This document shows positions 21,354 to 50,080 of a stretch of DNA of 64,000 nt, piece by piece (position 1 is the stretch's first letter; each line of letters starts with the position of its first letter). The stretch comes from an uncultured Bacteroidales bacterium (GTDB lineage Bacteria; Bacteroidota; Bacteroidia; Bacteroidales; F082), in the NCBI GenBank assembly GCA_947303395.1, contig CAMYYD010000007.1, positions 62,001-126,000 on the forward strand, written 5' to 3'. Below the pieces are notes generated by a model. It was given only the letters and a program-made list of their open reading frames with translations, was not told the DNA's origin and did not search any database. Position numbers and translations under genes: made by a program.

Positions 21354-21538
21354 AATCAAATAATTACGCTGAATTTTGCCCTGATTTTTGCAAATTCCTC
21401 GTAATTTATACCAAAAAAAATTAATAATCAATACAAAAAAAATATTTTTATTAACTTTTTTATGTTGATATTTGTAAAGTCGTTTTGAGACCAAAATGAT
21501 AATTATAATCACTTGATATTTAAATACTTGATAAATTG

Positions 21539-24113: not shown

Positions 24114-27100
24114 ATGAGAGGAAAATATATATATAATGCTGCATTTAGAGCAATGCTGCTTGCTGTCATGCTAGTGATATTAGGTATTACTAAGGTTTGT
24201 GCAGAGCAATTTGTTCTTGGCCATCTAAGGTATTCAACTTCAGGTACAAATACAGTTTCTTGTATTGGACATGCATTTAGTAGTGATGAAGCTGTTGGTT
24301 ATCTTATCATTCCCAGTAGTATTTTTTATAATGGGAAATACTGGACAGTGACAGCCGTCGGTGGATTTTCAGGATATACGAGATTGACAGGCGTTAGTAT
24401 TCCAAATTCTGTTACTAGTATAGGAAACTATGCGTTTAGTGGCTGTACAGGGTTTAGCGGAAATTTAAATTTACCAACTTCTTTGACGTCTATTGGTATC
24501 GAATCGTTTTGGGGATGTACTGGTTTTAATGGAACATTAACAATTCCGGAATCGATAACAGATATTGATATTACTGCATTTGCTGGAACAAACTTTACGG
24601 CTGTATATTGGAATGCTGTCAATTGTAATGACATCACTTGTGGATATACAAACTTTTATGGTTATTACATTTATAATTCGACACATTATTACGGTTTGTT
24701 GGCGGCTTGTTCTAACTTAAGATATGTATATGTAGGCGCTAATGTTCAGAGATTGCCTGCATATTCGTTATACGGATGTTCGCAGGTTACGACAATTACA
24801 TCTCAGGCCGAGACGCCTCCTGCGGCAAGCAATTATGTGTTTAATGGTGTTAATACAGGTATCAATGTCAAGGTTCCGTGTGGTAAATCCGGAGCTTATC
24901 AATCAGCGCAAGGATGGAGCGTGTTTCCTATTGTGGAAGGCGATGAATGCGAATATTTGATAACAGGATTGGCCGACCCGGCATATGCGGGTACTGTTTC
25001 TGGTAGTGGAACATACAATAATGGTTCTACATGTACATTGACTGCTAATCCTAATGCGGGTTACACGTTTATAGTCTGGACGGAGAATGGAACACAAGTT
25101 TCTACGGATGCTTCCTATACATTTACTGCAAAAAGCGATCGATTGCTGATAGCACATTTTCAACAGCAGTTATATACAGTTAATGTTTCACATTTTCCAT
25201 CAGCTGGTGGTACTGTAACTGGTGGTGGTACATTTACTTATGGCAATTCATGCACTGTTACTGCCACACCGAATTCCGGTTTCCATTTTGTCAATTGGAC
25301 GGAGAATGGAACACAGGTGTCAACAAATGCCACATATACTTTTAATGTGACAGATTCAAGAGATTTGGTGGCAAATTTCGTATTGGACAACATCGGCCCT
25401 GAACAAATCGTATTTGCTGATGCTAATGTTAAAGCAATTTGTGTTGAGAATTGGGATACTAATGGAGACGGTGAGCTTAATTATGATGAGGCAGCTGCTG
25501 TGACTACAATTGGTACGGAATTCGAAGGAAACACGGCAATAACCAGTTTTGATGAATTCCAATATTTTACTGGTGTAACAACACTTACGGGAGGAACAAA
25601 ACCTACTGGTCATCCGACTGTCATAGTGCAATATGGTGCCTTTTATTATTGTTCGAATTTGACATCAATTATAATACCAGAGAGTGTTACAGATATTAAG
25701 AATTATGCTTTTGCCGGATGTATGGGACTGACATCTTTGACTATTTATGCAGAAATACCGCCGACAACAGGAACCTATACATTCAATAATGTCGACAAAT
25801 CAATACCTGTCTATGTTCCTTGTGCTTATATGAATGCTTATATTGCGGCATCAGGATGGAATGAGTTTACGAACTATCAGGGAATAAATTGTATTTATCA
25901 TGAAATAGCTGTATCAGCAAATCCATCTGAAGGTGGTACTGTGGCTGGAGGTGGTACTTATGTACAAGGGGTAAGCTGCACATTAACGGCGACATTCAAT
26001 AGTGGCTATGTTTTTGTTAATTGGACCGAAAATGGCATTCCAGTTTCAACTAATGCCACTTACACATTTACTGTAACTGAAGATAGAACACTGGTGGCGA
26101 ATTTTAATTCGTTTAATGTAGATGATGTAATAACTTTTGCTGATGATAATGTTAAGGCAATCTGTGTTGCCAATTGGGATACTAATGAAGACGGTGAGTT
26201 GAGTTATGCGGAAGCAGCAGCGGTGACAACATTGAATCAAGTGTTTCAAGGAAATACAACAATAACAAGTTTTGATGAGCTTCAGTATTTTACAGGTTTG
26301 ACAGAATTAAGGGGATATGCGGCAAATCATTTGATAGGTAATACTAACTATTTTACTTATCATGGCGATTTTCGTGGATGTTCTAATCTATCATCTATAG
26401 TAATACCACAAAACATTGTAGTCATAGGACCTGGTTACGTATTTGAAAACTGCTCAACTCTTACATCAATTGAAATTCCGAATTCGGTTGTTTCTATGGG
26501 GAATTGTCTGTTTAGGGGGTGTGCCAGTCTGAATACGGTTGTTATTGGTAATTCTGTTGAATCAATCGGTAATCAATCTTTCTATGAATGCTCTAATCTA
26601 TCTTCATTAACAGTTTATGCTATAACGCCACCAACATTGGGTACCGATGTGTTTTATAATGTGGTAAAAACAATTCCAGTACACGTATATGAAACCACTA
26701 TTCCAGCCTATCAATCTGCGTCGGGATGGAGCGAGTTTACCAATTTTCATGGTATGAATTGTCAAAACTATGAAATTAGTGTTACTGCGAACCCATCTAA
26801 TGAAGGAACAGTAGTAGGGGATGGTATATATGCTCATGGAGAAACTTGTACTTTGTCGGCGACTCCTAATGCCAGTTATTCATTTGTTAGTTGGACAGAA
26901 AATGGAATTCTAGTGTCAACTAAAACAAACTACACATTTAGCGTAACTGATTCGAGAATATTGGTCGCAAATTTCGCTGAGGAGAATCAAGGCAATATCT
27001 CTTTCGCTGATGAAAATGTTAAAAATATATGTGTTAGCAATTGGGACACAAATGGGGATGGAGAATTAAGCTATGCTGAAGCGGCGGCTGTAACAAGTTT

Positions 27101-30100
27101 GAATTATAAGTTTCAGAATAATAACACTATAACTAGTTTTGAAGAACTGCAATATTTTACAGGACTGACTGAGATAACAGGACGTACTGAGCAAACTGTG
27201 TATGGAATTCACAATATTATAACAAGCTATTATGGGGATTTTAAGAGTTGTAACTTATTAACAAAAATAGTTATTCCAAATAGTGTGTCGATAATTAAAC
27301 CTAATGCTTTTAAGAGTTGTTCGAGTTTGACGTCATTAGTAATATATGACCAGGTCGTGTCTATTAATTCAAATGCTTTTAATAATTGCAATGGATTGAC
27401 ATCTATTACCGTTTATGCAGAGGTGCCACCAACATTAGGAAATTATGTGTTTAGTGGCGTGGATAAAAGTATTCCGGTATATGTTCCAGTTGGCAAAGTT
27501 GGAGTGTATCGTATGGCATCGGGATGGAGCGAATTTACTAACATTCAGGAAATACCGATACCAAGTTATGAAATCATTGCCACCATCAATCCATCAGAAG
27601 GAGGCATAGTGACAGGTGGCGATACTTATAATCATGGAACTTTGTGTACACTGGAGGCTGTGCCAAATGTTGGATACCATTTCGTCAATTGGACTGAAAA
27701 TGGTGATGAGGTGTCAACTGATGCTGTTTACACATTTGAAGTGACGGGAGAGAGATCTTTGGTGGCTAACTTCAGCCTTAATAGTTATGTAATTACTGTA
27801 TCAGCCAATCCAACAGAAGGAGGCACAGTGACAGGTGGCAATACCTATTTTCATGGAACATCGTGTACTGTGACAGCGACGACTAATGCTGATTATCTTT
27901 TCGTATATTGGACTGAGAATGGAGATTATGTTTCAGCTGATGAAGAATACACATTTACGGTTACAGAATCGAGAGATTTAGTTGCGAATTATATTCTTAA
28001 TATTTCTGATATTACTGCATCTGTTTTTCCAGCAAATGGAGGGTCGGTTACAGGTGCAGGGATATACACTAATGGCACTTCGTGTACGCTGACAGCTACA
28101 GCCAACGTGGGCTATACATTCGTGAATTGGACTGAGAATGGAAATAGTGTTTCAACTGATGCCGAATACACATTTACTGTGACAGAAGCAAGGACATTAG
28201 TGGCCAATTTCAGTCTTAACATATACTCTGTCAATGCTACTGCAAATCCGATAACAGGTGCGACTATTACAGGTGTTGGCAATTACACGCATGGGACATC
28301 GTGTACATTGACCGTAATAGCTAATGATAGTTATACCTTTATAAATTGGACGGAAAATGGAGAACAAGTTTCCAATGATACTGAATATAGTTTTGTAGTT
28401 ACCGAGACGAGAAACTTGGTGGCTAACTTGATTGAGAATATTACCTTCGCCGACCCTGTCGTCAAATCTCTCTGTGTCGCAAACTGGGATACCAATGGCG
28501 ATGGCGAACTGAGCTATGCTGAAGCTGCTGCTGTAACCGATTTGGGCGAGGTGTTTAGAGGTAAGCATGATATTACTTCATTTGATGAGTTACAGTATTT
28601 TACAGGATTAACAGAAATAGCGGATAATGCGTTTAGATATTCAATTTCATTGTCTTCAATCACATTTCCAAACACGATTACAACAATTGGTAGTTATGCG
28701 TTTTATCAGTGTTATGATTTGCTATCAATTGTAATACCTAGTTCTGTTACAATGATTGAAGATAATGTTTTCGGATTTACTCAGAATTTGGCACATATTG
28801 CAGTTGATCCGAATAACGCGGTTTATGATTCAAGAAATGATTGTAATGCAATTATCAACTCAACAACTAATGCGTTGCTTGTAGGTTGCTATAACACAAC
28901 GATACCAAACACTGTTACGACAATTGAACGTTATGCTTTTATGGATTGTGAGAATCTTACATCTATCATAATACCGAATTCGGTAACTACGATCGAATCA
29001 GAAACATTCTATGGCTGTTCAAGTTTGACATCAATCACAATTCCTAGTTCTGTGACAGAGATAGGTTCTCATGTATTCGCTGGTAATAATCTTGCGCAAA
29101 TTGTTGTTGAACAGGGTAATACCCATTATGATTCAAGAGAGAACTGCAATGCTATAATTAATTCTGAAACTAATGCCTTGATTGTCGGTTGTAAGAACAC
29201 TATTATTCCAAATACAGTGACAAAAATTGCAAGTAGTGCTTTTTATGCTTGTGATGGATTGACTTCAATTGTTATTCCACAAAATGTTACTGAATTAAGT
29301 TATTTAGCATTTTATTGCTGTATGAATCTAGACTCAATAACATTGAATTGTGTTGTTCCTCCTACAGTAGGAGAAAATGCATTTGGTGCAGTTGACAAAT
29401 CTATTCCAGTATATGTCCCTTGCAATACCTCCGCATCTTATGCCTCCGCAATCGGTTGGAATGAATTTACCAATATTCAGGAAATACTTTGTGTAAACAT
29501 TGAAGCTACAGCAAATCCTACAATAGCTGGCATAGTTACTGGTGGTGGTAATTATTATAAGGGAGTGGAATGTACACTGAATGCAGTGGCAAACGAAGGG
29601 TATATGTTTGAGAGCTGGACCGAAAACGGAGTGTTTGTTTCGGATAATCCTGAATATACATTTACTGTCAACGAAGACAGGACATTGGAAGCTAATTTCA
29701 TCAGTACGCAAACCACCCAACTCTTCTCCGGTTGGAACTGGTGGTCGACCTATATCGAGATGGATGGTTTTAACGGACTGGAATATCTTGAGAATACAGT
29801 AGGAGATCTTGGCATTTGCATTAAATCGCAGGTGTGCGCAGTGGTAAATTATTTTCCGGCTACAGGCGAAAGTTTCTGGTTTGGCGATGATATCGTAATT
29901 GACAACGAAAACTGTTATATGATTGACGTCACCGACGATTGTCTCGTGCAATTGGATGGCGATAAAGCCAATCCTGCCGACCACCCGATAAGAATCAAAC
30001 CTAACTGGTCGTGGATAGGCTATGTCGACAATGTTGTGCGAGATGTCAACACGGCACTTGAAGGCTTTGATGCGAGCAATGATGACGTGATAAAGAGCAA

Positions 30101-30842
30101 GGATGAGGCATCGACGTATAGCGAAGGTAATGGTTGGTATCCGGTAATAAACATGATTCCGGGACAAGGCTACAAGTATTTCTCCAATTCCAATGAAGAC
30201 AGATACCTGATATACAACAATGATTTCAACATGTCGGAGGTGGCGAAACGACAGGAGAAATTCTGGCATTATGACACTCATGCTTATGCTAATACGATGA
30301 CAGTGATTTCGGTGGTTGACATTGATAATGAGGAAGTTGCGAAAGGCAATTATGAACTTGCGGCCTTTGTCGACAACGAATGCAGAGGCAGCGTCAAACT
30401 TGATTATTTCGAACCGCTTGACCGTTATTTTGCCGTGATGAGCGTCGCTGGCAATGACTTGGAGGAAGTGAACTTCGGTTTGGCCGACACATCAAATGGT
30501 GAAGTTAACTTCAATTGCGAACAGAGCATGACGTTTGCCACCGATGCCGTTGTAGGCCGACTCAGCAGTCCTTACAACATCAGTTTCAATCATGAAAACA
30601 CAGATGCTGTTGTGCATATTTATCCAAACCCTGTAGACAGAAACGCTTCATTCACACTGGATATTCCGAGCAGCGAAACAATCTCTGAATTATTGATTGT
30701 CAACAGCTTGGGAGCAGAAATGATGCACCAAACTGGCATGACTGGCAAAGTTGTGAAAGGTCTCCCAGTGAGCGGCATCTACAGCATTCAGGTGATAACA
30801 AATACCGGCAACGTTTATCGCGGAAAGCTGGTGGTGAAGTAA
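24114..30842 (+). CDS. Giant BspA-type LRR/InlB-repeat surface protein with T9SS sorting domain (paralog A)
   Basis: 2242 residues from the ATG at 24114 (an earlier TTG at 24084 is rejected because the signal peptide RGKYIYN...KVCA starts here). It alternates leucine-rich BspA-type blocks (motifs such as LTSIVIPQNVTEL, SIPNSVTSIGNYAFSGC) with nine ~65-residue InlB-like B-repeats (GGTVTGGGTY ... FVNWTENG..VST.ATYTF.V...R.LVANF). Four EF-hand-like modules (WDTNGDGELSY.EAAAV) near 25408, 26128, 26997 and 28438 each introduce an LRR block. The C-terminus carries the shared cassette: GWNWWST module (about 29728), AYANTM...AAFVDNECRGS module (about 30262) and sorting domain (IYPNPVDRN ... YRGKLVVK). 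It has no catalytic domain and is probably an adhesin or matrix protein. LRR regions are AT-rich, the cassette GC-richer. Confidence 0.88.
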   Translation: MRGKYIYNAAFRAMLLAVMLVILGITKVCAEQFVLGHLRYSTSGTNTVSCIGHAFSSDEAVGYLIIPSSIFYNGKYWTVTAVGGFSGYTRLTGVSIPNSVTSIGNYAFSGCTGFSGNLNLPTSLTSIGIESFWGCTGFNGTLTIPESITDIDITAFAGTNFTAVYWNAVNCNDITCGYTNFYGYYIYNSTHYYGLLAACSNLRYVYVGANVQRLPAYSLYGCSQVTTITSQAETPPAASNYVFNGVNTGINVKVPCGKSGAYQSAQGWSVFPIVEGDECEYLITGLADPAYAGTVSGSGTYNNGSTCTLTANPNAGYTFIVWTENGTQVSTDASYTFTAKSDRLLIAHFQQQLYTVNVSHFPSAGGTVTGGGTFTYGNSCTVTATPNSGFHFVNWTENGTQVSTNATYTFNVTDSRDLVANFVLDNIGPEQIVFADANVKAICVENWDTNGDGELNYDEAAAVTTIGTEFEGNTAITSFDEFQYFTGVTTLTGGTKPTGHPTVIVQYGAFYYCSNLTSIIIPESVTDIKNYAFAGCMGLTSLTIYAEIPPTTGTYTFNNVDKSIPVYVPCAYMNAYIAASGWNEFTNYQGINCIYHEIAVSANPSEGGTVAGGGTYVQGVSCTLTATFNSGYVFVNWTENGIPVSTNATYTFTVTEDRTLVANFNSFNVDDVITFADDNVKAICVANWDTNEDGELSYAEAAAVTTLNQVFQGNTTITSFDELQYFTGLTELRGYAANHLIGNTNYFTYHGDFRGCSNLSSIVIPQNIVVIGPGYVFENCSTLTSIEIPNSVVSMGNCLFRGCASLNTVVIGNSVESIGNQSFYECSNLSSLTVYAITPPTLGTDVFYNVVKTIPVHVYETTIPAYQSASGWSEFTNFHGMNCQNYEISVTANPSNEGTVVGDGIYAHGETCTLSATPNASYSFVSWTENGILVSTKTNYTFSVTDSRILVANFAEENQGNISFADENVKNICVSNWDTNGDGELSYAEAAAVTSLNYKFQNNNTITSFEELQYFTGLTEITGRTEQTVYGIHNIITSYYGDFKSCNLLTKIVIPNSVSIIKPNAFKSCSSLTSLVIYDQVVSINSNAFNNCNGLTSITVYAEVPPTLGNYVFSGVDKSIPVYVPVGKVGVYRMASGWSEFTNIQEIPIPSYEIIATINPSEGGIVTGGDTYNHGTLCTLEAVPNVGYHFVNWTENGDEVSTDAVYTFEVTGERSLVANFSLNSYVITVSANPTEGGTVTGGNTYFHGTSCTVTATTNADYLFVYWTENGDYVSADEEYTFTVTESRDLVANYILNISDITASVFPANGGSVTGAGIYTNGTSCTLTATANVGYTFVNWTENGNSVSTDAEYTFTVTEARTLVANFSLNIYSVNATANPITGATITGVGNYTHGTSCTLTVIANDSYTFINWTENGEQVSNDTEYSFVVTETRNLVANLIENITFADPVVKSLCVANWDTNGDGELSYAEAAAVTDLGEVFRGKHDITSFDELQYFTGLTEIADNAFRYSISLSSITFPNTITTIGSYAFYQCYDLLSIVIPSSVTMIEDNVFGFTQNLAHIAVDPNNAVYDSRNDCNAIINSTTNALLVGCYNTTIPNTVTTIERYAFMDCENLTSIIIPNSVTTIESETFYGCSSLTSITIPSSVTEIGSHVFAGNNLAQIVVEQGNTHYDSRENCNAIINSETNALIVGCKNTIIPNTVTKIASSAFYACDGLTSIVIPQNVTELSYLAFYCCMNLDSITLNCVVPPTVGENAFGAVDKSIPVYVPCNTSASYASAIGWNEFTNIQEILCVNIEATANPTIAGIVTGGGNYYKGVECTLNAVANEGYMFESWTENGVFVSDNPEYTFTVNEDRTLEANFISTQTTQLFSGWNWWSTYIEMDGFNGLEYLENTVGDLGICIKSQVCAVVNYFPATGESFWFGDDIVIDNENCYMIDVTDDCLVQLDGDKANPADHPIRIKPNWSWIGYVDNVVRDVNTALEGFDASNDDVIKSKDEASTYSEGNGWYPVINMIPGQGYKYFSNSNEDRYLIYNNDFNMSEVAKRQEKFWHYDTHAYANTMTVISVVDIDNEEVAKGNYELAAFVDNECRGSVKLDYFEPLDRYFAVMSVAGNDLEEVNFGLADTSNGEVNFNCEQSMTFATDAVVGRLSSPYNISFNHENTDAVVHIYPNPVDRNASFTLDIPSSETISELLIVNSLGAEMMHQTGMTGKVVKGLPVSGIYSIQVITNTGNVYRGKLVVK

Positions 30843-30861
30843 AAATATAGACATAAATAGT

Positions 30862-30897
30862 TCGGGTTTCATCACAAAGATGGAACCCGATTTTTTT
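30862..30897 (+). terminator. Terminator after paralog A
   Basis: TCGGGTTTCATC (30862-30873) pairs with GATGGAACCCGA (30879-30890), 12 bp with one wobble and loop ACAAA, followed by seven T. The stem sequence recurs almost unchanged in the minus-strand terminator at 51978-52003. Confidence 0.88.
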
Positions 30898-30926
30898 ATT
30901 ACAATTGAAGTTTTTTAAGTTTTTTC

Positions 30927-30957
30927 TTGGAAATGAAATAATAGTTTCATAATTTTG
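30927..30957 (+). promoter_or_regulatory. Promoter of the subtilisin/LRR gene
   Basis: TTG at 30927-30929 and TAATTTTG at 30950-30957 have a 20-bp spacer; the leader to the ATG at 30992 is about 34 nt. Confidence 0.65.
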
Positions 30958-30991
30958 CACAATTTATAACTGATTAATAATTATTTATAAG

Positions 30992-33900
30992 ATGAGACAT
31001 CGTTTATTTTCCAAAAGTTTTATTGGTATTATTGTATTAATTTTGTCGTTATACAGTATTTCTGTCGCTAATGCTCAAACTTCCAGCATTAACTGGAATA
31101 AGATTGATCCAGAGTTACGTGCAGATATCGAGAATTCGACGCGCGATAACCAGATGTATCGCATCATTGTTGTTATGACCGAGCGATATGATCAGTCGGT
31201 TTTTGAGCGTGCAACCCGTAATATGGACAAACAGACAAGACGTGAGTATGTGATGGGGGAGATGAAGAGGTTTACCTCCGAGTCGCAGAGCAACGTTTTG
31301 GGAATTATGAGAAATCAAAACACTGACGCTGTCAGTAATCTTCAGCAGTTTTGGATTTTCAACGGTTTCTCGTGCATGGCGACCGCTTCGGTGATAGAGA
31401 CTCTTTCCAATCGTGGCGATATCAGTATGATTTGTTCCGACAAGGAACGTCAGATGATACCTGATACGGAAGATGCAGAGTATGTCCCACAAAGAGGTAA
31501 TGCTTGGAATGTGACAAAAGTCAATGCAGATGATGTGTGGACTTATTATGGTTCAACAGGTTATACAGGAAAAGGTGTTGTTGTGGCTGTCATTGATACA
31601 GGTGTGAACTATAATCATACCGATATCAAAGATAATATGTGGGATGGCGGTAGCGAATATCCTTATCATGGCTACGATTTTGTGAATTCTGATAACAATC
31701 CTATTGATGATCACAGTCACGGTACACATTGTGCGGGTACGGTGGCTGGATATGGCACAAATGGTACTCAAACTGGAATGGCAACTGGCGCAAAAATCAT
31801 GGCACTCAAGGTTTTGAATTCTAGTGGTAACGGCGAGGATGGTCCTATAGTAAATGCTATGGAGTTCGCCATGGAACATGGAGCCGATATTGTGAGCTTG
31901 TCATTAGGCGCATCGGGTGTTGGAGGATATTGGTATTATCGCGACACGATGGTTACATTGCTAAATGCTGGTGTCGTTGCATCTGTGGCTGCCGGTAATG
32001 ACGGTGACGAATTAAATAAATATCCTATTCCATATAACATTGGGGCTCCTGGCAACTGCCCACCGCCGTATCTGCATCCTGATCAAAAGGATATTCTTGA
32101 TGGTGGTTTGTCGGCTACAATAAGTGTTGGAGCAACCGACCAAAACGATGTTCACACCTACTTTACCTCGGTTGGACCAGCTACATGGTCGACAGGTAGT
32201 TATATAGGAAACTATAATGATTATCCGTATTCAGCCAACAGCAATACCCTAATAGGTCTCATCCGTCCGGATGTTGCTGCTCCTGGTTATCAGATAGTTT
32301 CTCTAACTCATAATAGCAATACAGGCTACTGCACAAAAAACGGCACATCAATGGCAACTCCTTGTGTTGCCGGAGTTATGGCTTTAATGCTGGAGGCTAA
32401 TCCAGATCTTACCCCGCGACAGATCGATTCTATTCTCGAACATACCGCTGTGCGGTGCGAAGGCGCCACATCGAAAAGCAACTACACTGGTTCGGGTCGT
32501 ATCGATGCCTATGCCGCCGTGCAAGGAGCTCTTTCGTTGCCTATCAGTTTCGCCGATGCCAACGTTAAAGCCCTCTGCGTTGCCAATTGGGACACCAACG
32601 GTGACGGAGAACTGAGTTATGGTGAAGCGGCTGCTGTTACGGATTTGGGTAATGTGTTTAAATCGAATCGTAACATTACATCGTTTAATGAGTTACAGTA
32701 TTTCACAGGACTGACTTCAATAGGAGAAAATACTTTTAATTATTGTCGTAACCTTACTTCCATTGTTATTCCAAATAATGTTGTTACAATTGGCTACGAT
32801 GCATTTTATGAGTGTGATGCATTAGCTGCGCTGGATATCCCCAATTCGGTAACAACAATTGCCAATAGTGCGTTTTATGGTTGTATCAGTCTTACCTCAT
32901 TATATATTCCGGCTTCTGTAACATCAATAATTTCTTTAGCTTTTGGGCATAATAACCTTGAGCAGATTGTCGTAGATCCCGATAATCCTGTTTATGATTC
33001 TAGAAATAATTGCAATGCTATAATAAAAACTGCAACAAATGAAGTGCTGATCGGATGTAAAAACACGGTTTTCCCGAATACAGTGACCTCAATCGGCTCT
33101 TATGCTTTTTATCACTGTGATGGTCTAACATTACTGGAGATCCCAAGCACAATAACATCAATTTCAAAATATGCGTTTGAATATAACAGTATAGGACAGA
33201 TAGTAGTAGATTCTGAAAATTCTGTCTATGATTCAAGAAATAATAGCAATGCAGTGATAAAAACTGCTACTAATGAGTTGATTGTCGGTTGTGAAAACAC
33301 GATTATTCCGAATACAATTACGAAGATTGGAGAGTATGCTTTTTATAATTGCAAGGGTCTTACAGCTATTGAAATTCCAAATTCGGTGACAATCATTGAT
33401 AGTTATGCGTTTAATGGGTGTTCCGGACTCACAACGATTAGTATTCCAAGTCAGGTCGTTCAACTTGGATATAATGCGTTTCAGTATTGCTCTCATCTTG
33501 TAGAAATAAGTGTGTATGCAGTTACACCTCCTGTAACATTGGGTAATTATGTGTTTGGCGGCATTAACAAATCAATTCCTGTTACTGTTTACTGTGAATC
33601 GGTCAATGAATATTATAATGCAAACCAATGGAGCGATTTTACAAATTATCAGACTTTTGAAGATGATTGCCCGCAGGAAATAACGGTTTCGATGAACATT
33701 GCTGATGGTGGTACGGTTACCGGTGGCGGCACGTATAACACTGGCGATACCTGTACACTGGTAGCTGTTCCTAATGATGGCTATCTATTCACTCACTGGG
33801 AAAGAAACGGTAATTTGGTTTCATGTAATTCCACTTATTCATTCAGTGTTTGTGGCGAAACAGAGTATGTTGCCATTTTTGATGCTATTGAAGGTTTATA

Positions 33901-38377: not shown

Positions 38378-38401
38378 TTGATAAACAATAGGTATTTATA
38401 T

Positions 38402-41400: not shown

Positions 41401-44314
41401 TGAAAACACAGTTTTCGACTCAAGAAATGATTGCAATGCAGTAATCAACACTAATTACAATATTTTGGTCGTAGGTTGTAAAAACACTGTTATTCCTGAT
41501 GATATTGTTGAAATAGGTAGTTTCGCGTTTTATGAATGTTCAGGTCTTACATCTGTCGAATTACCAAATACTTTGACGACAATTGGATCTTATGCTTTTT
41601 ATTATTGTCAGGGTCTTACATCTTTGGAATTACCAAGTTCTGTCAATGCAATTAATACTTATGGATTGTATTATTGTTCTGGTTTAAATTCCATTACGGT
41701 TAATTCCGATACGCCACCAACAGCTGGTTCTTATGCTTTTAATGGTATTGGCAATGCTACGGTCATCGTCCCTTGCGGTTCGGTGGCTGCCTACAAGAAT
41801 GCCGCACAATGGAGCTCGTTCTCAAATTATTATACCGACGAATCCTGCACACATGAAATTTCTGTCGTTGCAAACCATGAAGATGCCGGTGTCATTAACG
41901 GCGGGGGAACATTTGTGGAAGGAACAACATGCACTGTTACAGCAACTCCGTCTGATATTTATAATTTTGTGAGCTGGATGGATAACGATGTGGTCGTCTC
42001 AACGAATTCTTCTTATTCATTTAACGTAGTCGCTGACTGTGTCCTCACCGCAGTGTTCGAGCTGAAACCTGCCGACTATGTCGTCGTAAGTCTCTATCCT
42101 GAATATAACAATAACGCAAGCCCTTATGTTAAAATATCCTGGAGAATGAATGAAGATTATTCTTATGATTTTACTAATGGTCTTCAGGGTTGGACTAACA
42201 TCGATGCTGATGGCGATGGCTATAAATGGTCTGCCGGCACTTTCGCTGGACATAATGGTGGTAATTGCGCTTCATCGGCTTCTTATGTGAATAATGTCGG
42301 ACCTCTTACCCCTGACAACTATCTCGTTTCTCCTAAAAAAGGCTTCTATTCAACACTTAACTTCTGGGCTTGCGCTCAAGATGGTGCATGGGCAGCTGAG
42401 CATTTCGGAGTGGCCGTGTCAACAAAAGGTAACACCGATCCCGATGACTTCATCACAATTCAAGAATGGACATTGGCGCGCAATGCCAAAGCTCAAGGGA
42501 CTTGGAATCAATATTCAGTCGACTTGAGCGCTTATGCTGGACAGGATATCTGGGTTGCTTTCCGCCATTTCGATTGTACCGATATGTTTAACCTGAATGT
42601 GGACGATGTTGAACTTGTGGTGAATACTGGCAAGTCTGATTCTGAAATAGAATATTATCGCGTCTATCGTTCTGACTTGCACAATACTCAGCTTATCGCT
42701 GATAATATCGTAGCTTCTTCTTATATCGATAATTCTTGGGAAACACTTGCTTATACTTCTTACAAATATGCAGTTAGTGAAGTGTATGTGGGTGGGAATG
42801 AATCCGAATTGGTGTGGTCTCCAACAATTGAAAAAACTCCGATAACCAAGCATTGGTCCCCAATCACCGGAACCCAATATAATATGAATGTTATCGGCAT
42901 CATAACCATCAACGGTGAAGAACAGTTCAACTCAACTCTTGAAGTCGGAGCTTTCTGTGGCGACGAATGCCGCGGAAGCGTGTGCGCAAGCTTCTTCCCG
43001 CCAACAGGCCAGTATCTGGTGCCTCTCACAATAGTGAGCAACGTGGAAGAAGGGGAGGAGATATCATTCCGCCTCTACGACCATATGGCTCGAGTTGAAC
43101 GCGACGACCTGACATGCAACGTCACTGTTACATTTGAAAATGACGCCGTGATAGGTGCTGTTGAGGATTTGTTCGACTTCTCATTCAATAACGAACATAC
43201 ATTCGACCTGATGGCCGGCTGGAACTGGTGGTCTACTTACGTCGAACAGAATAATATCGACGGACTAACCATGCTCGAAAACAGCCTCGGTCATAATGGT
43301 TTGGTGATAAAGAATCAGACACAGTCTTTGATTAATTACTATCCACAAACCAACGATGACATGTGGTTCGGCGACCTGAATGCCATTACCAACGAAAATG
43401 GTTATCTTATTCAGACAAATGCCGCATGCAGCATCGTTCTTTATGGTCCTGAAGCTGATGTGGCAAACCATCCTATAACTCTCACTCCTGCATGGAATTG
43501 GATCGGATATCCTGTTGATATTCAGCAAAATATGGCGGCAGCGACAAATAATCTCACACCAGAACACAACGACATCATCAAAGGACAGAACACTTCTGCA
43601 ATCTACGCTGATGGCTATGGTTGGTTCCCTGACGACTTCGTGATGAAACCTGGCCGGGCTTATAAATACAAGTCTCTGGCTGATGCTGATAAGACTTTCG
43701 TTTACACTCGCTCTGCAACTGAATCGGTTAGCTCGCCTCATAAGCGCTATTGGAACGATAACAGCCGTGCTTTCGCTGAAAACATGACAGTGCTGGCCAC
43801 AGTCTATGTCGCTGATATCGAACAACATAACTCCGACCTCGAACTCGGTGCCTTTGTCAACGGCGTTTGCCGCGGTAGTGCTAAACTCAAGTATTTCGAG
43901 CCTCTCAACCGCTACTACGCAATGCTGACAATCTCAGGCGATAAGGCCGAAGACCTCGAATTCGCTCTCGTTAACGCCGAACAGAACATGATGGGCAACA
44001 GCAGCGAGGAAAGCCTTACATTTGCAGCTGATGCTGTAATAGGTTCTTTCGACGAGCCTTTCAAAATTCATTTTGGTGAGATGACCGAAATCGACAGAAA
44101 CAGCTTGCTGATTTATCCTAACCCTGTCGACCGTAACGAAACGTTCACTCTCGACATTCCGAAAGACGAGACGATAAAGGAAATCATAATTACCGACGCT
44201 CTCGGCTCAGTGGTTTGCAAAAACACCTTTAGCCTGCGAGTTTCAGGCGTTTATATGGTTAAAGCCGTCTGCGCTTCAGGTAATATTTATATTGGGAAAA
44301 TTGTAGTAAAATGA
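38402..44314 (+). CDS. C10 (streptopain-like) cysteine protease with LRR and adhesin modules, T9SS cargo (paralog C)
   Basis: 1970 residues from the ATG at 38402, 24 bases after the previous stop, probably co-transcribed. A signal peptide (1-22) and a Spi-like propeptide (about 22-145: GGYV-type TSGFVIVAADE) precede the C10 peptidase domain (about 150-385) with Cys186 (YAGCVATAMGQ) and His329 (QGGHAFVCDGY), followed by the usual FGWSG.SNGYY. Then two InlB-like repeats, the jelly-roll module (GVCIGASESV, about 39988), another InlB repeat, one EF-hand-like module (40734), LRR blocks to about 41830, a fourth InlB repeat, and a cleaved-adhesin-like domain (YDFTNGLQGWTNIDADGDGY, about 42160-42640). 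The cassette ends the protein: CGDECRGS, GWNWWST, AFVNGVCRGS, sorting domain. Its last ~450 bases closely resemble those of paralog B. Confidence 0.92.
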   Translation: MKRLFLSLILTLLAAFNVVLANPVDENLAREIGAKFIQASTTMKVANSNDLELVKTYNVERGAAAFYVFNTTSGFVIVAADECSTPILGYSDNGKFDENDIPVQLQEYLQEFVNQIQFGMENGSDADEETIRQWELVKTTGRIKEQRNTNVVEPLLTETWHQNCYYNALCPVDESSPACQRVYAGCVATAMGQIMHYWRYPETGVGSHTYTYSTYPTQTANFGETTYDWDNMPDFIDENSSPEEINAVATLLWHCGVAVDMQYGPDGSGAYSTDVPSAMIGYFKYSDEMAFSYRSNFAANIWKSKMKANLDINRPMYYSGSKGLLQGGHAFVCDGYDSNDLFHFNFGWSGSSNGYYAIGSVLTYNYSDAAIFNIHPQSETTYYEISAFANDVNGGTVTGGGSYVHGATVNLTATPNAGYSFCYWEEDGAIASTNANYSFTADYNRNLTAVFALPFTITVSVDANGGGLVSGGGVFSYGETCTITAVPDAGYIFNSWNKNDVFASAVQNYVFTVTGACDYVASFVVPNGVCIGASESVNAFIPSYSYYNYSLTQQIYTADEIGAGVIHSLAFFNGGTSKTRNLAVYLKTTDKNVFTSNTDWIPVTSDDMVFSGNITIPVGEWTVITFNTPFSFDGNSNLLLTVDDNTGSYLSNHMKCRTYNTLTQQTLYVYNDNTNYNPASPSYTGTLLSMKNQLLLEIDHDDSFEVTVSIDDNDAGTVSGSGIYNYNEICTITVTPNAGYDFRYWTENGHVVSKDMEYSFLVRKNSEIMAVFSDDAPIPFADSNVKSKCVSKWDTNGDGELSYNEAAAVTSIGTTFAYNNTYKSFDELQYFTGLTTIPGYAFNSCTNLISVKIPESVESIGAYSIYNTSITNLEIPASVISFGNAAFGNNIIEHITVDPGNTILDSRDNCNAVIETATNKLLVGCKNTIIPNSVTAIGTHAFYMCSGLTSFDIHNAITTIGDYAYYGCKTPTSLYIPSSVVGIGQNAFGNSSLLQISVDPENTVFDSRNDCNAVINTNYNILVVGCKNTVIPDDIVEIGSFAFYECSGLTSVELPNTLTTIGSYAFYYCQGLTSLELPSSVNAINTYGLYYCSGLNSITVNSDTPPTAGSYAFNGIGNATVIVPCGSVAAYKNAAQWSSFSNYYTDESCTHEISVVANHEDAGVINGGGTFVEGTTCTVTATPSDIYNFVSWMDNDVVVSTNSSYSFNVVADCVLTAVFELKPADYVVVSLYPEYNNNASPYVKISWRMNEDYSYDFTNGLQGWTNIDADGDGYKWSAGTFAGHNGGNCASSASYVNNVGPLTPDNYLVSPKKGFYSTLNFWACAQDGAWAAEHFGVAVSTKGNTDPDDFITIQEWTLARNAKAQGTWNQYSVDLSAYAGQDIWVAFRHFDCTDMFNLNVDDVELVVNTGKSDSEIEYYRVYRSDLHNTQLIADNIVASSYIDNSWETLAYTSYKYAVSEVYVGGNESELVWSPTIEKTPITKHWSPITGTQYNMNVIGIITINGEEQFNSTLEVGAFCGDECRGSVCASFFPPTGQYLVPLTIVSNVEEGEEISFRLYDHMARVERDDLTCNVTVTFENDAVIGAVEDLFDFSFNNEHTFDLMAGWNWWSTYVEQNNIDGLTMLENSLGHNGLVIKNQTQSLINYYPQTNDDMWFGDLNAITNENGYLIQTNAACSIVLYGPEADVANHPITLTPAWNWIGYPVDIQQNMAAATNNLTPEHNDIIKGQNTSAIYADGYGWFPDDFVMKPGRAYKYKSLADADKTFVYTRSATESVSSPHKRYWNDNSRAFAENMTVLATVYVADIEQHNSDLELGAFVNGVCRGSAKLKYFEPLNRYYAMLTISGDKAEDLEFALVNAEQNMMGNSSEESLTFAADAVIGSFDEPFKIHFGEMTEIDRNSLLIYPNPVDRNETFTLDIPKDETIKEIIITDALGSVVCKNTFSLRVSGVYMVKAVCASGNIYIGKIVVK

Positions 44315-44354
44315 GAATTTTAAAAAATAATAGTAATAATTCAAAAATTATTCG

Positions 44355-44362
44355 TAATTTTG
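44355..44362 (+). promoter_or_regulatory. -7 promoter box of paralog D
   Basis: TAATTTTG, 23 bases before the ATG at 44386. It argues against the upstream in-frame ATG at 44311, which would start before the promoter. Confidence 0.6.
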
Positions 44363-44385
44363 CACCGATTAGTGTAACTATATCC

Positions 44386-46494
44386 ATGAGGAAAGTTGTT
44401 TTTATTTTATTAACTATTTTATTATCAGCTACTTATATTGCTAAAGCTGATAATAACGATTTTACTAAACATTGGACACCTATCACAGGTACCCAATATC
44501 ACATGAGTGTTTATGGCATCATTACCATCAATGGTGAGGAACAGTTTTCCGATGCCCTCGAAATTGGCGCTTTCTGCGGTGACGAATGCCGCGGTAGCTC
44601 TATGGCTCAATTATTCCCGCCTACATCTCAATATGTGGTGCCTCTCTCAGTGGTGAGTAACCAGGAAAGTGGCGAAACAATACGTTTCCGTATCTACGAC
44701 CACTCAATTAACGAAGAACTTGAACTGACTTGTCTTACAGCGGTTCTTTATCAGGATAACAATGACCTGGGCACTGTTGGCAACTGGTTTAATTTCGCTT
44801 TCAGCAACCTCACTCATTATTGGACTCCAATTACCGGCACCCAATATAACATGACTGTTTCTGGTATAATTGTCATTAACGGCGTTGAGCAGTTTACTCC
44901 ATATCTCGAAGTTGGCGCTTTCTGCGGCGACGAATGCCGCGGTAGCGAATTCGCTCAGTATTTCCCGCTGACCGGACAGTATGTGGTGCCAATGACTATC
45001 GTGAGCAACCAGGAGAGTGGCGAGACTATTACTTTCCGCCTCTACGATCATGAATTGGCTGAGGAACTTGTTGAACTTCATTGCACTAACCCTGTAACTT
45101 TCGTCAACGATGCTGTGATTGGCAATCCTATGGAATGGTTCCAGTTCGCATTCAGCAATATGTTTATGGTTACTGTAACTATCGAACCTGAAGGCGCCGG
45201 CACAGTTGAAGGCGCTGGCGAATACGCTTGGGGCTCAACAGCTACACTCACAGCTAGCGACAATGTCGGTTTTGTGTTTAAAGAATGGGAGATTGGCGGC
45301 GAGATAGTGTCGACCGAAAGAACCTATTCTTTCGATGTCTATGCCGATGTGAACCTCATCGCAAGATATTACTACCAGCAGATCAACAACTTGGTTAATG
45401 GCTGGAACTGGTGGTCAACCTATATCGAACAAAACAACAACGATGGTCTCACAATGCTTGAGAACAGTCTCGGACATAACGGAGTGGTGATTAAATCGCA
45501 GACTCAGTCGGTGATAAATTATTATCCGCAAACTGAAGATGACATGTGGTTTGGTGATCTTACCGCTTTGAATAACGAAAACAGCTATCTTATCCAAACT
45601 AACGCTGCTTGCGAGATTGCAGTAACAGGCGACATAGCGGTAGCAGCCAACCATCCTATTACATTGACGCCAAATTGGACTTGGATCGGCTATCCGATGA
45701 CAGCTCCTTTGACAATACAGACGGCAATGAGCCAGTTGGAACCTGCAGCCAACGATGTGTTGAAAAACCAGACCCATTCGGTAGTTTTCTATGAAGGATA
45801 TGGCTGGTGGCCTAACAACTACACATTTACACCTGGCTGCGGTTATAAATATTTCTCCAATGCTACTGAAAACAAGACATTTGTTTACACAGCAACAGGC
45901 AGCAAAGACGGTGGAATGACCGAAGTTGAAAACCGTTTCTGGAACAACGACGCTCACGCTTTTGCTGAGAATATGTCTGTTTTGGTGATGGCTTATGTCG
46001 ACGATGAGGCTATGCAAAACGACAATCTAGAGGTTGGCGCTTTTGTTAACGGTGAAAACCGTGGCAGCGCGCATCTCACTTACTTCCCTCCGCTCAACCG
46101 CTACTGCGCACTCATTACAGTGGCCGGACAGAAAGGCGATAAGGTTGAGTTTGGCCTTGTCGATGCCGAAAACAACAAGATGAGTTTGGAATGCTCCGAT
46201 AACGTTATGTTTGAAGCCGATGCCATGATAGGCAGCCTCGACAAACCTTTCGAAACTCATTTTGCTGAGATGAAAGATATTAATAAGGAGAACATCTTCG
46301 TTTATCCTAACCCGATGGACCGCAACTCCACATTCTCGGTTGAAGTTCCTTACGGCGAGACGATAACTGAGATTATGGTGACCAATACCCTCGGTAAAAC
46401 AATGCACAAGGAACACCTGACACCTGGCACATATATTATTAAGGTGTCGTGCCAATCAGGCAGTGTTTATTATGGTAAACTGATTGTAAAATAA
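44386..46494 (+). CDS. Minimal cassette protein: adhesin modules plus T9SS sorting domain (paralog D)
   Basis: 702 residues from the ATG at 44386, where a signal peptide begins (RKVVFILLTILLSATYIAKA). It has no protease or LRR part. Two consecutive HWTPITGTQY.M...GAFCGDECRGS modules (about 44469 and 44814), one InlB-like repeat (about 45166), the GWNWWST module (about 45400) and the AFVNGENRGS module (about 46030) lead to the sorting domain (VYPNPMDRN ... YYGKLIVK). It is therefore almost exactly the C-terminal cassette of its neighbours as a free-standing protein, which suggests that the cassette itself has a function such as ligand binding or anchoring. It has its own promoter. Confidence 0.88.
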   Translation: MRKVVFILLTILLSATYIAKADNNDFTKHWTPITGTQYHMSVYGIITINGEEQFSDALEIGAFCGDECRGSSMAQLFPPTSQYVVPLSVVSNQESGETIRFRIYDHSINEELELTCLTAVLYQDNNDLGTVGNWFNFAFSNLTHYWTPITGTQYNMTVSGIIVINGVEQFTPYLEVGAFCGDECRGSEFAQYFPLTGQYVVPMTIVSNQESGETITFRLYDHELAEELVELHCTNPVTFVNDAVIGNPMEWFQFAFSNMFMVTVTIEPEGAGTVEGAGEYAWGSTATLTASDNVGFVFKEWEIGGEIVSTERTYSFDVYADVNLIARYYYQQINNLVNGWNWWSTYIEQNNNDGLTMLENSLGHNGVVIKSQTQSVINYYPQTEDDMWFGDLTALNNENSYLIQTNAACEIAVTGDIAVAANHPITLTPNWTWIGYPMTAPLTIQTAMSQLEPAANDVLKNQTHSVVFYEGYGWWPNNYTFTPGCGYKYFSNATENKTFVYTATGSKDGGMTEVENRFWNNDAHAFAENMSVLVMAYVDDEAMQNDNLEVGAFVNGENRGSAHLTYFPPLNRYCALITVAGQKGDKVEFGLVDAENNKMSLECSDNVMFEADAMIGSLDKPFETHFAEMKDINKENIFVYPNPMDRNSTFSVEVPYGETITEIMVTNTLGKTMHKEHLTPGTYIIKVSCQSGSVYYGKLIVK

Positions 46495-46533
46495 TAAATT
46501 ATAAAAAACAGGGTGCCGTATCGAAATTAATTG

Positions 46534-46541
46534 TAATTTTG
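46534..46541 (+). promoter_or_regulatory. -7 promoter box of the paralog E operon
   Basis: TAATTTTG, with a leader of about 35 nt to the ATG at 46583. It probably drives the three-gene unit to 51880. Confidence 0.6.
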
Positions 46542-46582
46542 CAGCCCCAAATAAAATAGGAATAATTAAAAAATTAAATACT

Positions 46583-49500
46583 ATGAAAAAAACTTTATTA
46601 TTATTGTTATTTGCAGTTTTTGCAATGGGTTTTTCAGCTAATGCATGTGAAATCAAATTTTACTTGCATGATGCCTATGGTGCTGGATGGAATACAAATC
46701 AAATCAAAGTTGATTACATAAATAATTCTATTGTTCAAACAGAGAATATGACTATTTTAGATGGTAACCAGGCAATGTATACTATAGATGTTGATGATGG
46801 CAGTACGATTAGTATTGATTGGATTCTAAATTACAATGATGGTGTGTCAAGATCTTTTTCGATAAAGTTTACTAATGGAATAAGAATCTATGAAAGTCCT
46901 GTGTTGGAAAATGGATATCATTATGAGTTTGTTTTAAATTGCTCTGATGCAACAAAACAACGTAGTATAACAGTTAATCCCAATCCATTAGATGGTGGTA
47001 ATGTTAGTGGCTCTGGCAATTATGAGCCAATGACTTCAGTAACAGTTTCTGCTACACCAAATGATGGATTTCTTTTCAATAATTGGTCCATAGACGATGA
47101 GATTACTGCGACTACTTTATCATATACTTTTGATGTAGATTATGATTATAATATCATAGGTAATTTCTTTGAGTATAATGGTTTGTATGTTGGAAACGAT
47201 GAGAACTCCAATGTTAATATTCCTTTAAATTCAAGTAAAAAGCATTCAGTGTCACAACAGATTTATACACGTTCTGGTGATGGACTTACTGCTGGAGTAA
47301 TTAATAGTATTGCAGTTTATAATAATGGCACTGAAAAAACTCGTAATATTGATGTTTATATGGTTAATATTGGTAGTAAAGAATCATTTGATGGCACTAA
47401 AGATTGGATATCATTAACAGCAGATGATAAAGTGTTTAGTGGTATTGTTTCTTTACCCCAAGGTCAGTGGACTACAATAGCTTTTAATGTTGGAGAAAAT
47501 GCATTTACATTAAATGATAATAACAATCTTGCTTTAGTTATTCATGACCATACTGCAACAGGTTCAGCTGGTTGTGAGTTTAGAGTGTTTCCTGCAAACA
47601 ATGATGCTAATCAAACTTTATATTATTTGTCGTCTTTATCAAGTATAAATCCATTGAGTTTAAGCAGTAAGACAGGTACTTTGTTGGCATCAAAGAATCA
47701 AATTGTATTCGGCTATAGCTCAATGTCTTGTACTGTTACTGCAACTTCTCATAATACTACTTATGGAACTGTTACTGGTGGTGGAACTTATACTAGTGGC
47801 GAAACATGCACTTTAACAGCAACTGCCGCTACAGGCTATGAGTTCAAATGCTGGAAAGAAGCTAATACAATAGTATCAACAGACGCTGAATATACATTTA
47901 CAGTTGAAGGCGACAGAACTTTGACCGCTTATTTCGGTACGCACTGGACTCCAATAGAAGGTAATCAGACTACAGCTACGGTTAAAGGTGTCGTGTCAAT
48001 TAACGGACAGCAGCAAGTCAATCCAGACAATGTTCTTGAAGTTGGCGCATTCTGTGGTGATGAATGCCGCGCAGTTACAAGACCACAATATTTCCCGCCA
48101 ACCCAAGAATATGTGGTGCAGATGTCTGTAAGAAGTAATGTGCTTTCAGGTGAAACAATTACTTTCCGTCTCTATAATTATGCGACAATGGAAGAGTATG
48201 ATATCTGTCCAAACACGATAGAGTATGTTGCGGAAGCAGTTTATGGTGGTATGGGTAATTGGTTCCAATTCGCTTTCTATACCGAATTGGATATCACAAC
48301 AAGTGTAAATCCTGAAAATGCAGGAATAGTAACCGGTGCAGGCTCATATTTATATGGTACACAGGCAACAATCACTGCTACTCCAAATGAGGGCTATGTA
48401 TTTGTAAACTGGACTAAGAACAATGTGGAAGTTTCAACCAACCCATCATATACATTCACTGTTGAAGAGGCTGCTGAATATGTCGCTAATTTCAATATTG
48501 TGATTTCAGCTACAGCAAACCCGACTGCAGGCGGTACAGTAACAGGTGCAGGTAACTATGCCTATGGTACCACATGCCAATTGGTTGCTACAAACAACAG
48601 CGGATATGAGTTTGTAAACTGGACAAAAGGCGGAGTGGAGGTTTCAACCGAACCGAGCTATAGCTTTACAGTTGAAGCTCCAGGCGCTTATGTCGCTAAC
48701 TTTAATCCAATCGAGTTCGAAATCAATGCAATAGTAAATCCGGCCGAAGCAGGTACCGTTTCAGGTGCAGGAATGTATATGGTTGGCACTAATTGCACAT
48801 TGACAGCTACTGCAAATCCAGGATATGAGTTTGTAAACTGGACAAAAGACAATGTCGAGGTTTCAACAAATGCATCACTCAGCTTCACAGTTGAAGGTGC
48901 CGCTACATATTATGCCAATTTTACAGGCAAACAGGTTACACAACTTGTAAATGGTTGGAACTGGTGGTCAACAGCAATTGAAACCGACAACAATAGCTTG
49001 ACAGTGCTTGAGGAAACTCTCGGTCATAATGGATTGACTATTAAATCACAAGATTTAGCTACAGAAAACTATTATCAGGATTTAGGTTATGATTATTGGT
49101 GGGGCGCTTTGACGATGTTAAATAACGAGAGCAACTATCTGATTCAAACAAATGCTGCATGTGAAGTTGTGATGACTGGCGAATATGTTGATCCGGCCGA
49201 GCATCCGATAACAATTGTGCCGAACTGGTCATGGATTGGATATCCTGTCAATGCTACACAGGAAGTTGCAGATGCTATTAGCAATACATTTGTTCCTGCC
49301 GATGGTGATATGATCAAATCACAGGGAGCTTCAATAACATATTATGACGGATATGGATGGTGGACATCTGAGGTGATTAACATGATACCTGGTAAAGGAT
49401 ACAAATACCAGTCAAATGCATCGGAAAACAAGTCATTGACGTTTGTTAATAACGGAAACAGCAATAGCAAGTCAGGTAGTATCGATAATCACTATTGGAA

Positions 49501-50080
49501 GAGCAACCCATACGCTTATGCCGACAATATGGTGATTTTCGCTACTGCAATTGTGGCCAATGAAGAGCAGCATGATGCCGACCTTGAACTCGGCGCATTT
49601 GTTGATGGCGTTTGCCGTGGTAGAACTCACATGAGATATTTCGAACCTCTCAACCGTTATCTCGCTTTGATGACTGTGTCGGGTGAGGAAGGCGATGTAA
49701 TTGAATTTGGTCTTGTTAATGCCAATAGTAATCTTATCAGCCTCGATTGTTCTGATAATGTAGTGTTCGAAAGCGATGCTATTATCGGTAGCTTGGATGA
49801 GCCGTTTGAGGTTCACTTCTCGGCAATGCAGGAGTTCAGCAGAAGCCAGCTCGAAATGTTCCCTAACCCAGTAAGCCGTAACGAAACAGTTACATTCAAC
49901 TTGCCAGACGATGAAATGGTTAAGGAAGTTGTTGTGACAAATGCAGTGGGCGCAGTTGTAAAGCATAATGCTTCATCGCTCACAATGATTGGCGAGGGAA
50001 TGCCAATGTCGGGAGTTTACATGGTGAAAGTTATCTGTAACTCTGGCAATGTTTATACTGGCAAACTTATTGTGAAATAA
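46583..50080 (+). CDS. Modular T9SS adhesin-like protein (paralog E)
   Basis: 1165 residues. The signal peptide (KKTLLLLLFAVFAMGFSANA) is followed by a beta-rich N-terminal domain (CEIKFYLHDAYGAGWN ... YHYEFVLNC) not seen in the other paralogs. Then come an InlB-like repeat, the jelly-roll module (GLYVGNDENSNVNI ... LALVIHDHT), four more InlB-like repeats (about 47735, 48290, 48500, 48715), with one HWTPIEGNQ...GAFCGDECRA module between the first and second of these. The shared GWNWWST (about 48956), AFVDGVCRGR (about 49590) and sorting-domain cassette ends it (FPNPVSRN ... YTGKLIVK). It has no catalytic motif and no LRR. It is probably a surface adhesin, and 13 bases separate it from the next gene. 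Confidence 0.88.
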   Translation: MKKTLLLLLFAVFAMGFSANACEIKFYLHDAYGAGWNTNQIKVDYINNSIVQTENMTILDGNQAMYTIDVDDGSTISIDWILNYNDGVSRSFSIKFTNGIRIYESPVLENGYHYEFVLNCSDATKQRSITVNPNPLDGGNVSGSGNYEPMTSVTVSATPNDGFLFNNWSIDDEITATTLSYTFDVDYDYNIIGNFFEYNGLYVGNDENSNVNIPLNSSKKHSVSQQIYTRSGDGLTAGVINSIAVYNNGTEKTRNIDVYMVNIGSKESFDGTKDWISLTADDKVFSGIVSLPQGQWTTIAFNVGENAFTLNDNNNLALVIHDHTATGSAGCEFRVFPANNDANQTLYYLSSLSSINPLSLSSKTGTLLASKNQIVFGYSSMSCTVTATSHNTTYGTVTGGGTYTSGETCTLTATAATGYEFKCWKEANTIVSTDAEYTFTVEGDRTLTAYFGTHWTPIEGNQTTATVKGVVSINGQQQVNPDNVLEVGAFCGDECRAVTRPQYFPPTQEYVVQMSVRSNVLSGETITFRLYNYATMEEYDICPNTIEYVAEAVYGGMGNWFQFAFYTELDITTSVNPENAGIVTGAGSYLYGTQATITATPNEGYVFVNWTKNNVEVSTNPSYTFTVEEAAEYVANFNIVISATANPTAGGTVTGAGNYAYGTTCQLVATNNSGYEFVNWTKGGVEVSTEPSYSFTVEAPGAYVANFNPIEFEINAIVNPAEAGTVSGAGMYMVGTNCTLTATANPGYEFVNWTKDNVEVSTNASLSFTVEGAATYYANFTGKQVTQLVNGWNWWSTAIETDNNSLTVLEETLGHNGLTIKSQDLATENYYQDLGYDYWWGALTMLNNESNYLIQTNAACEVVMTGEYVDPAEHPITIVPNWSWIGYPVNATQEVADAISNTFVPADGDMIKSQGASITYYDGYGWWTSEVINMIPGKGYKYQSNASENKSLTFVNNGNSNSKSGSIDNHYWKSNPYAYADNMVIFATAIVANEEQHDADLELGAFVDGVCRGRTHMRYFEPLNRYLALMTVSGEEGDVIEFGLVNANSNLISLDCSDNVVFESDAIIGSLDEPFEVHFSAMQEFSRSQLEMFPNPVSRNETVTFNLPDDEMVKEVVVTNAVGAVVKHNASSLTMIGEGMPMSGVYMVKVICNSGNVYTGKLIVK

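Follow-up and report, generated by a model that had tools for sequence, protein, structure and literature searches.

A common GW-CRG tail on differently headed, predicted type IX secretion cargo of an uncultured Bacteroidales bacterium

Introduction

Modular cargo of the type IX secretion system (T9SS) has been described for Porphyromonas gingivalis, in which RgpA and Kgp carry common adhesin domains behind the catalytic domain in a combinatorially modular fashion, HagA is without a proteolytic domain, and the cleaved domains remain non-covalently associated in large outer membrane complexes (PMC5266723). Three types of T9SS sorting domain, A, B and C, are distinguished (PMC10202324), and type A cargo of P. 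gingivalis is described as having its sorting domain recognised and cut off by PorU and its chain anchored to anionic lipopolysaccharide (A-LPS). The rumen Bacteroidales member Candidatus Paraporphyromonas polyenzymogenes has multi-modular T9SS cellulases, for which the available sections of the account report no cohesins or dockerins (PMC5831590). In the current study, we analysed a window of 64,000 nucleotides (nt) from an uncultured Bacteroidales bacterium (assembly GCA_947303395.1, contig CAMYYD010000007.1, positions 62,001 to 126,000 of the forward strand), in which six open reading frames (ORFs), termed A to F, lie head to tail, and in which A to E share one C-terminal cassette, formed by a GW module, a CRG module and a T9SS sorting domain, behind differing N-terminal regions (heads).

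Results

An earlier reading of the same DNA from its letters alone (the original prediction) held that five tandem genes close with one order of modules, and this was confirmed for all five: A to E each end with GW, a CRG copy termed CRG2 and a sorting domain, that of B being recognised by alignment with the other tails. A related copy ahead of GW, CRG1, is present in four of the five, as had been claimed, namely in B, C, D (twice) and E, and there is none in A. CRG1 is a homologue of CRG2 by hhalign (probability 99.1%); the CRG1 motif of E reads CRA instead of CRG, and the 'GAF' of the CRG modules is a sequence motif only, unrelated to the GAF domain. GW is an internal duplication of two repeats, and that of D yielded a confident predicted structure model, with which a PDB fold search gave no clear match. 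Models of GW, CRG, F and the sorting domain were built for this analysis; neither GW nor CRG matched a Pfam or NCBIfam family at E <= 1, chance-like matches aside.

The mark of T9SS type A cargo, a C-terminal type A sorting domain (TIGR04183/PF18962), was found in the run: TIGR04183 exceeded its cut-off in A, C, D, E and F, B was not listed in that scan, and PF18962 fell under its cut-off wherever it was listed in the run (A, C, D, E and F). In the predicted model of D, residues 301-369 are similar to the sorting domains of HBP35 and PorU, and the sortase that this route requires, PorU (NF033707), was found in the genome to which the window belongs. The products of A to F are predicted to be surface proteins exported by Sec and then by the T9SS; signal-peptide-like starts were present in all six by a lax hydropathy rule that 72 of 180 other ORFs also pass. 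All six frames are open on the + strand from 24114 to 51599, with gaps of 149 nt (A-B), 24 nt (B-C, to the ATG of C at 38402; a longer frame opens with TTG at 38378), 71 nt (C-D, to the likely start), 88 nt (D-E) and 13 nt (E-F), and these short same-strand gaps suggest a single transcription unit.

Within its own genome the GW module gave six matches, five in the run and one on another contig, and CRG gave 13, ten in the run and three in the one extra GW gene elsewhere. Set against 100 matches of PF18962 at E <= 0.001, some of them under its cut-off, the six GW matches indicate that the cassette sits on few of this genome's T9SS proteins. Among relatives, GW was found in 97 of 173 genomes of the family and in 80 of 99 of the genus (own genome included, counted from the listing), with at most 19 candidates scored per genome; in an even draw over the order, with at most 12 scored, it was found in 49 of 295 genomes and 41 of 183 genera (E <= 1e-10). 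A scan of named genomes gave 61 GW loci, mostly in metagenome-assembled genomes (MAGs) from ruminants; the genomes searched throughout this study were MAGs or drafts, the results derive from sequence data, and genomes and loci are cited by G and L numbers. Dense clusters recur, with eight headed and one headless GW gene on contig 8 of G128 and eight GW genes each on contig 5 of G118, where two are broken in frame, and contig 5 of G127. The order CRG-GW-CRG-sorting domain also closes giant proteins of other families, several of them near 3200 amino acids. Since the same order recurs in many other genomes, the window's cassette is neither chance nor assembly error; it is spread over the order and is not special to this locus.

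Some members depart from this plan. One gene of L074 (5327-11143) holds three GW modules, in the order CRG-GW-CRG-GW-CRG-CRG-GW-CRG, followed by a sorting domain. Cassette tails broken in frame, through assembly errors or decay, were seen in L065 (11394-15219), L070 (11118-12225) and L083 (6941-11075). More than 100 first-look GW candidates, of which 12 were scored, came from each of G266, G279 and G325; these are weaker and more diverged, some of the frames stopping at GW and others adding a further stretch and a sorting domain.

The heads predicted for A (leucine-rich repeats, LRR), B (S8 protease and LRR), C (C10 protease and LRR) and D (none) were borne out by Pfam; for E the unnamed N-terminal domain and the jelly-roll-like region stood, and the Pfam scan found in this head only Flg_new_2 and PKD-like repeats. 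Taking the 84 genes with the full tail of GW, CRG and sorting domain, a set that includes the window and the dense clusters and whose heads were labelled with our own models, 18 have LRR heads, 12 are headless like D, 11 have C10, six Cleaved_Adhesin, four C25, three IgGFc-binding and one S8 heads, and 29 have others; a search with the same models found no M14, PAD or endonuclease I head among them. On GW-bearing chains of any kind (85 heads of the 61 loci, nine representatives being read singly and the counts being lower bounds) the range is wider: at least 60 heads carry Flg_new_2, 15 LRR_5, 13 C25, nine Cleaved_Adhesin, eight C10, six M14, three PAD_porph, three IgGFc-binding, two endonuclease I and two S8, with M14 and endonuclease I on chains ending at GW and PAD on a cut-off chain (L088). 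The cluster of G128 alone combines three C10 heads, LRR heads, an IgGFc-binding and an AhpC/TSA + Lcl_C head with its headless gene. In L049 (8108-9994) and others, the head has a cohesin-domain Pfam match (E 2e-10) together with HYDIN-type immunoglobulin (Ig) domains, and a cohesin match occurs as well in two of 11 heads of a further set of relatives (A7).

A tree of 83 of the 84 tails (L083, a broken frame, was dropped) showed that tails cluster by genome rather than by head. The genome label required 31 changes, compared with 47-56 in 300 shuffles (67 tails from 17 genomes with at least two tails each), and the head label 28, compared with 26-36, which is no clear signal (54 tails, the 29 'other' heads being left out). 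B (S8) and C (C10) of the window have sister tails that are 68% identical, and two neighbouring genes of G128 have tails 98.9% identical beneath heads, one C10 and the other AhpC/TSA + Lcl_C, whose similarity is confined to stretches of 70-75 residues. The simple reading would be head exchange combined with local tail copying; close genomes keep matching genes, so that tail copying would not be constant.

In certain relatives the two modules are found in separate chains. Some proteins end 0-5 residues past GW (17 in one), without CRG2 and without a sorting domain; they account for 34 of 107 unique GW frames in L049-L109, 24 of 29 in L130-L159 and four of 34 in L020-L048, the first two sets having genomes in common and a few of the GW-ending frames being broken genes. 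Such proteins occur in other families (L180, L182) and in G110 of the same genus (L198), and those read singly bear C25 (L093), M14 (L086) and endonuclease I (L097) heads, S8 heads being likewise found on GW-ending proteins in relatives. Secreted-looking giants of this kind include L086, L093, L096, L097, L102, L106 and L107, among others. A wide-profile CRG search of nine genomes with GW-ending cargo (12 searched, less G000, G110 and G116, the row of the last being the same as that of G179) gave 38 matches, 13 in a frame that also holds GW and 25 in a frame without it; 24 of these 25 lie within 2.5 kb of a GW, and at least one occurs in each of the nine genomes. Separate CRG matches near GW number one to three in eight of the nine and seven in the other, and GW matches reach 24 per genome, fragments included; few CRG and many GW proteins are what a hub would give, with the proviso that draft genomes may miss some.

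Gene F, the sixth of the run, has a counterpart in relatives. Relatives possess a companion gene, located 3' of GW genes, in which CRG directly follows the signal peptide and is succeeded by a part homologous to F and a sorting domain; F and the main part of the companion in L053 are identical in 169 of 490 columns, and 40 ORFs matched as F homologues, window copies and partial matches included. Where the 3' end of the GW gene is complete (101 genes), a next ORF lies within 600 nt in 85 cases. It is a CRG-first gene in 35 of them, 24 without GW and 11 with it (headless like D; two, in L070 and L083, are broken frames), another headed GW gene in 29 and of other kinds in three. Conversely, 34 of 38 CRG-first genes stand directly 3' of a GW gene, a count that is biased because the loci were chosen for having GW. 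Across 20 genomes of the genus, a GW match is present at no more than 5 kb from 67 of the 72 CRG matches, or from 54 of 59 once the window's genome is set aside, and the territory within 5 kb of GW makes up at most 0.36 of the 52 Mb searched.

Table 1. Positions in the window of genes A to F and of the modules and domains assigned to them.
Feature	Position	Strand	Remark
Gene A: LRR_5 blocks and Flg_new_2 repeats, then GW-CRG2-sorting domain; without CRG1	24114..30842	+	
Gene B: S8 protease head, LRR_5 arrays, then CRG1-GW-CRG2-sorting domain	30992..38377	+	
Gene C: I69 propeptide, C10 protease, LRR_5, Cleaved_Adhesin, then CRG1-GW-CRG2-sorting domain	38402..44314	+	
Gene D: headless; signal peptide, CRG1 twice, Flg_new_2, GW, CRG2, sorting domain	44386..46494	+	
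Gene E: unnamed N-terminal domain, jelly-roll-like region, Flg_new_2, CRG1, GW, CRG2, sorting domain	46583..50080	+	
Gene F: sixth sorting-domain gene, companion type, without CRG	50094..51599	+	TIGR04183 over cut-off
Peptidase_S8 of B	31568..32470	+	Pfam E 1e-53
Peptidase_C10 of C	38879..39469	+	Pfam E 2.7e-65
Cleaved_Adhesin of C	42182..42613	+	Pfam E 5.6e-33
CRG1 of B	36905..37261	+	
CRG1 of C	42842..43201	+	
CRG1 of D, first copy	44464..44811	+	
CRG1 of D, second copy	44812..45159	+	
CRG1 of E	47936..48280	+	
GW of A	29715..30242	+	
GW of B	37271..37807	+	
GW of C	43202..43744	+	
GW of D	45385..45921	+	modelled
GW of E	48938..49489	+	
CRG2 of A	30243..30599	+	
CRG2 of B	37805..38155	+	
CRG2 of C	43742..44092	+	
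CRG2 of D	45922..46281	+	
CRG2 of E	49487..49837	+	
Type A sorting domain of A	30618..30839	+	TIGR04183 34 bits
Sorting domain of B	38174..38374	+	alignment with other tails only; no curated model listed
Sorting domain of C	44111..44311	+	TIGR04183 25.6 bits
Sorting domain of D	46300..46491	+	TIGR04183 25.8 bits
Sorting domain of E	49856..50077	+	TIGR04183 33.9 bits

On either side of the run stand dnaA (21536-22972) and a gene for a valyl-type tRNA synthetase (55053-57680), and a POT-family peptide transporter gene (53233-54927, - strand) adjoins it. Just before the LRR blocks of A, B and C stands an EF-hand-like stretch (DTNGDGEL..), with EF-hand Pfam matches near the cut-off. Elsewhere in the window, positions 797-3628 encode a gingipain-like C25 protease that has a propeptide but not the cassette, its sorting domain being a plain one. 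Outside the window, the same genome carries two tandem PorU-like sortases (G000:C2:218147-224742; NF033707 1167.5 and 923.9 bits).

Discussion

Based on the recurrence of one tail beneath varied heads and on the pairing of GW with CRG, we tentatively propose, at somewhat less than even confidence, that GW and CRG are partner modules, fused in this organism and split elsewhere, that form the base of a shared surface complex. In such an arrangement B and C would act as proteases and A, D and E as adhesive LRR or beta proteins, all on one tail of GW, CRG and sorting domain, and should these proteins lose the sorting domain and become anchored in the way described for P. gingivalis, GW-CRG would become the membrane-near base. 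The two modules would belong to one chain here and be divided between neighbouring genes where the cargo ends at GW, and the proteins that begin with CRG (in this organism D, in others the F-type companion) may serve as a common hub that gathers differently headed proteins. The product would be a mixed protease-adhesin surface complex degrading protein for peptide uptake, with which the POT transporter beside the run fits, although this is weak evidence. A more specific form of the proposal, in which GW and CRG are a docking pair at the base of a protease-rich surface machine and a CRG protein that bears a sorting domain would export or retain, by way of a GW tail, cargo that has no known sorting domain of its own, appears unlikely on the sequences at hand. 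The binding function that the original prediction ascribed to the cassette by itself is plausible.

Several observations weigh against the proposed partnership. The pattern of joined and split modules is explained by a common pathway or common ancestry equally well as by contact, and fold searches with GW and CRG gave no informative neighbour. In the window, F lacks CRG while D carries both CRG and GW, which blurs the hub role in this organism. Among the 85 next ORFs, 18 have none of the modules, and the loci of that count, the 20 genomes used for pairing and the genomes with GW-ending cargo were all selected for GW. Two of those 20 genomes (G064 and G116) gave no CRG match with the first profile, which was derived from the window and may therefore miss distant CRGs; the wider profile gave one weak match in G116. 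In G174, G176 and G179 the CRG matches are weak (best E 9e-10 to 1e-11), and the only loci, of those read, in which the separate CRG protein was seen to bear a sorting domain are L093, L097, L100 and L106.

It is a serious possibility, if on balance an improbable one, that T9SS cargo simply uses GW and CRG as stalk or adhesive beta modules of an ordinary kind, which would raise the heads above the surface or attach to glycan or mucus and would form no docking pair. Their joint inheritance would then result from duplication and gene conversion of whole tails. What stalk modules do not predict is the position of CRG-first genes directly behind GW genes, nor that a separate CRG should stand beside a GW in nine of nine genomes with GW-ending cargo.

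We consider it distinctly unlikely that GW is itself a T9SS secretion or sorting signal, one more type in addition to A, B and C, which would export the GW-ending cargo and persist in the window as a relic or as a second signal before the type A domain. Such a role would account for the signal-peptide-like starts of 23 of 26 GW-ending proteins (72 of 180 others under the same lax rule), for heads that belong to P. gingivalis T9SS cargo families (C25 in L093, M14 in L086) or are endonuclease I (L097), and for the lack of any listed NCBIfam sorting model in the six GW-ending tails scanned. It is also in keeping with the tandem of two PorU-like sortases found in nine of ten genomes searched, and with a last residue K or R, seen in 28 of 51 proteins of the GW-ending kind and in 117 of 168 with a sorting domain, as against 37 of 160 among other ORFs (Fisher p 3e-5; the test ignores kinship). 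However, fold searches with GW did not return the type A domains, which are Ig-like 3+4 beta sandwiches, and a signal of this kind leaves the neighbouring CRG unexplained. GW as a signal and GW as a docking module can both be true together.

Collapsed or misassembled repeats, or decaying copies, are scarcely credible as the origin of the run: some cassette genes of relatives are indeed broken in frame (L065, L070, L083), but the six frames of the window are all open and the order is repeated in many independent assemblies.

Overall, the original prediction was partly supported. There is good support for its view of the locus as a single, combinatorial surface system made up of protease heads and repeated scaffolds, given that C25, C10, LRR, adhesin and other heads occur on the same tail in relatives and that tandem clusters recur; the recurrence of module order in related genomes, which it proposed as a check, was observed and disposes of the assembly error that it had allowed for. 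It had overlooked gene F, as well as the fact that GW and CRG can be separated and that the cassette is spread over the order.

The present analysis adds two widespread module families that are missing from the libraries searched (Pfam and NCBIfam), and indicates that a single tail serves many different secreted heads across the Bacteroidales. The locus offers a testable case of a modular surface complex built on the T9SS, or of a further T9SS signal, and either reading, if true, would help to predict which unnamed giant proteins cooperate in the breakdown of protein in the gut.

With regard to known systems, the LRR_5 arrays of A, B and C resemble those of BspA-type LRR proteins (Pfam LRR_5), with the difference that in the run LRR is one of several head types on a common tail. 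In the cohesin-dockerin system of the cellulosome, many enzymes carry a common C-terminal module and few scaffolds carry its partner; the run is like this system in its proposed logic only, no relation in sequence or fold being apparent, it is joined to T9SS sorting, and no cohesin or dockerin model matched A to F in Pfam at E <= 1. Candidatus Paraporphyromonas polyenzymogenes shares with the run large T9SS cargo, operon-like clusters and hypothetical domains beside catalytic ones, but its enzymes are carbohydrate-active enzymes rather than proteases and no common GW/CRG tail is described in the available part of the account (PMC5831590). RgpA, Kgp and HagA, as far as the available literature describes them, are alike in their use of the T9SS, in protease heads and in shared C-terminal modules that occur in combinations, the headless D being comparable to HagA. 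They differ in that their shared modules are Cleaved_Adhesin and DUF2436, those of the run being GW and CRG with one Cleaved_Adhesin, in C only; the heads of the run derive from more families and its genes stand in tandem, and C25 heads are absent from it (S8 and C10 being present instead), although they occur on this tail in relatives. The gingipain/HagA system is the closest precedent and works alike, and the run is a separate system rather than a member of it.

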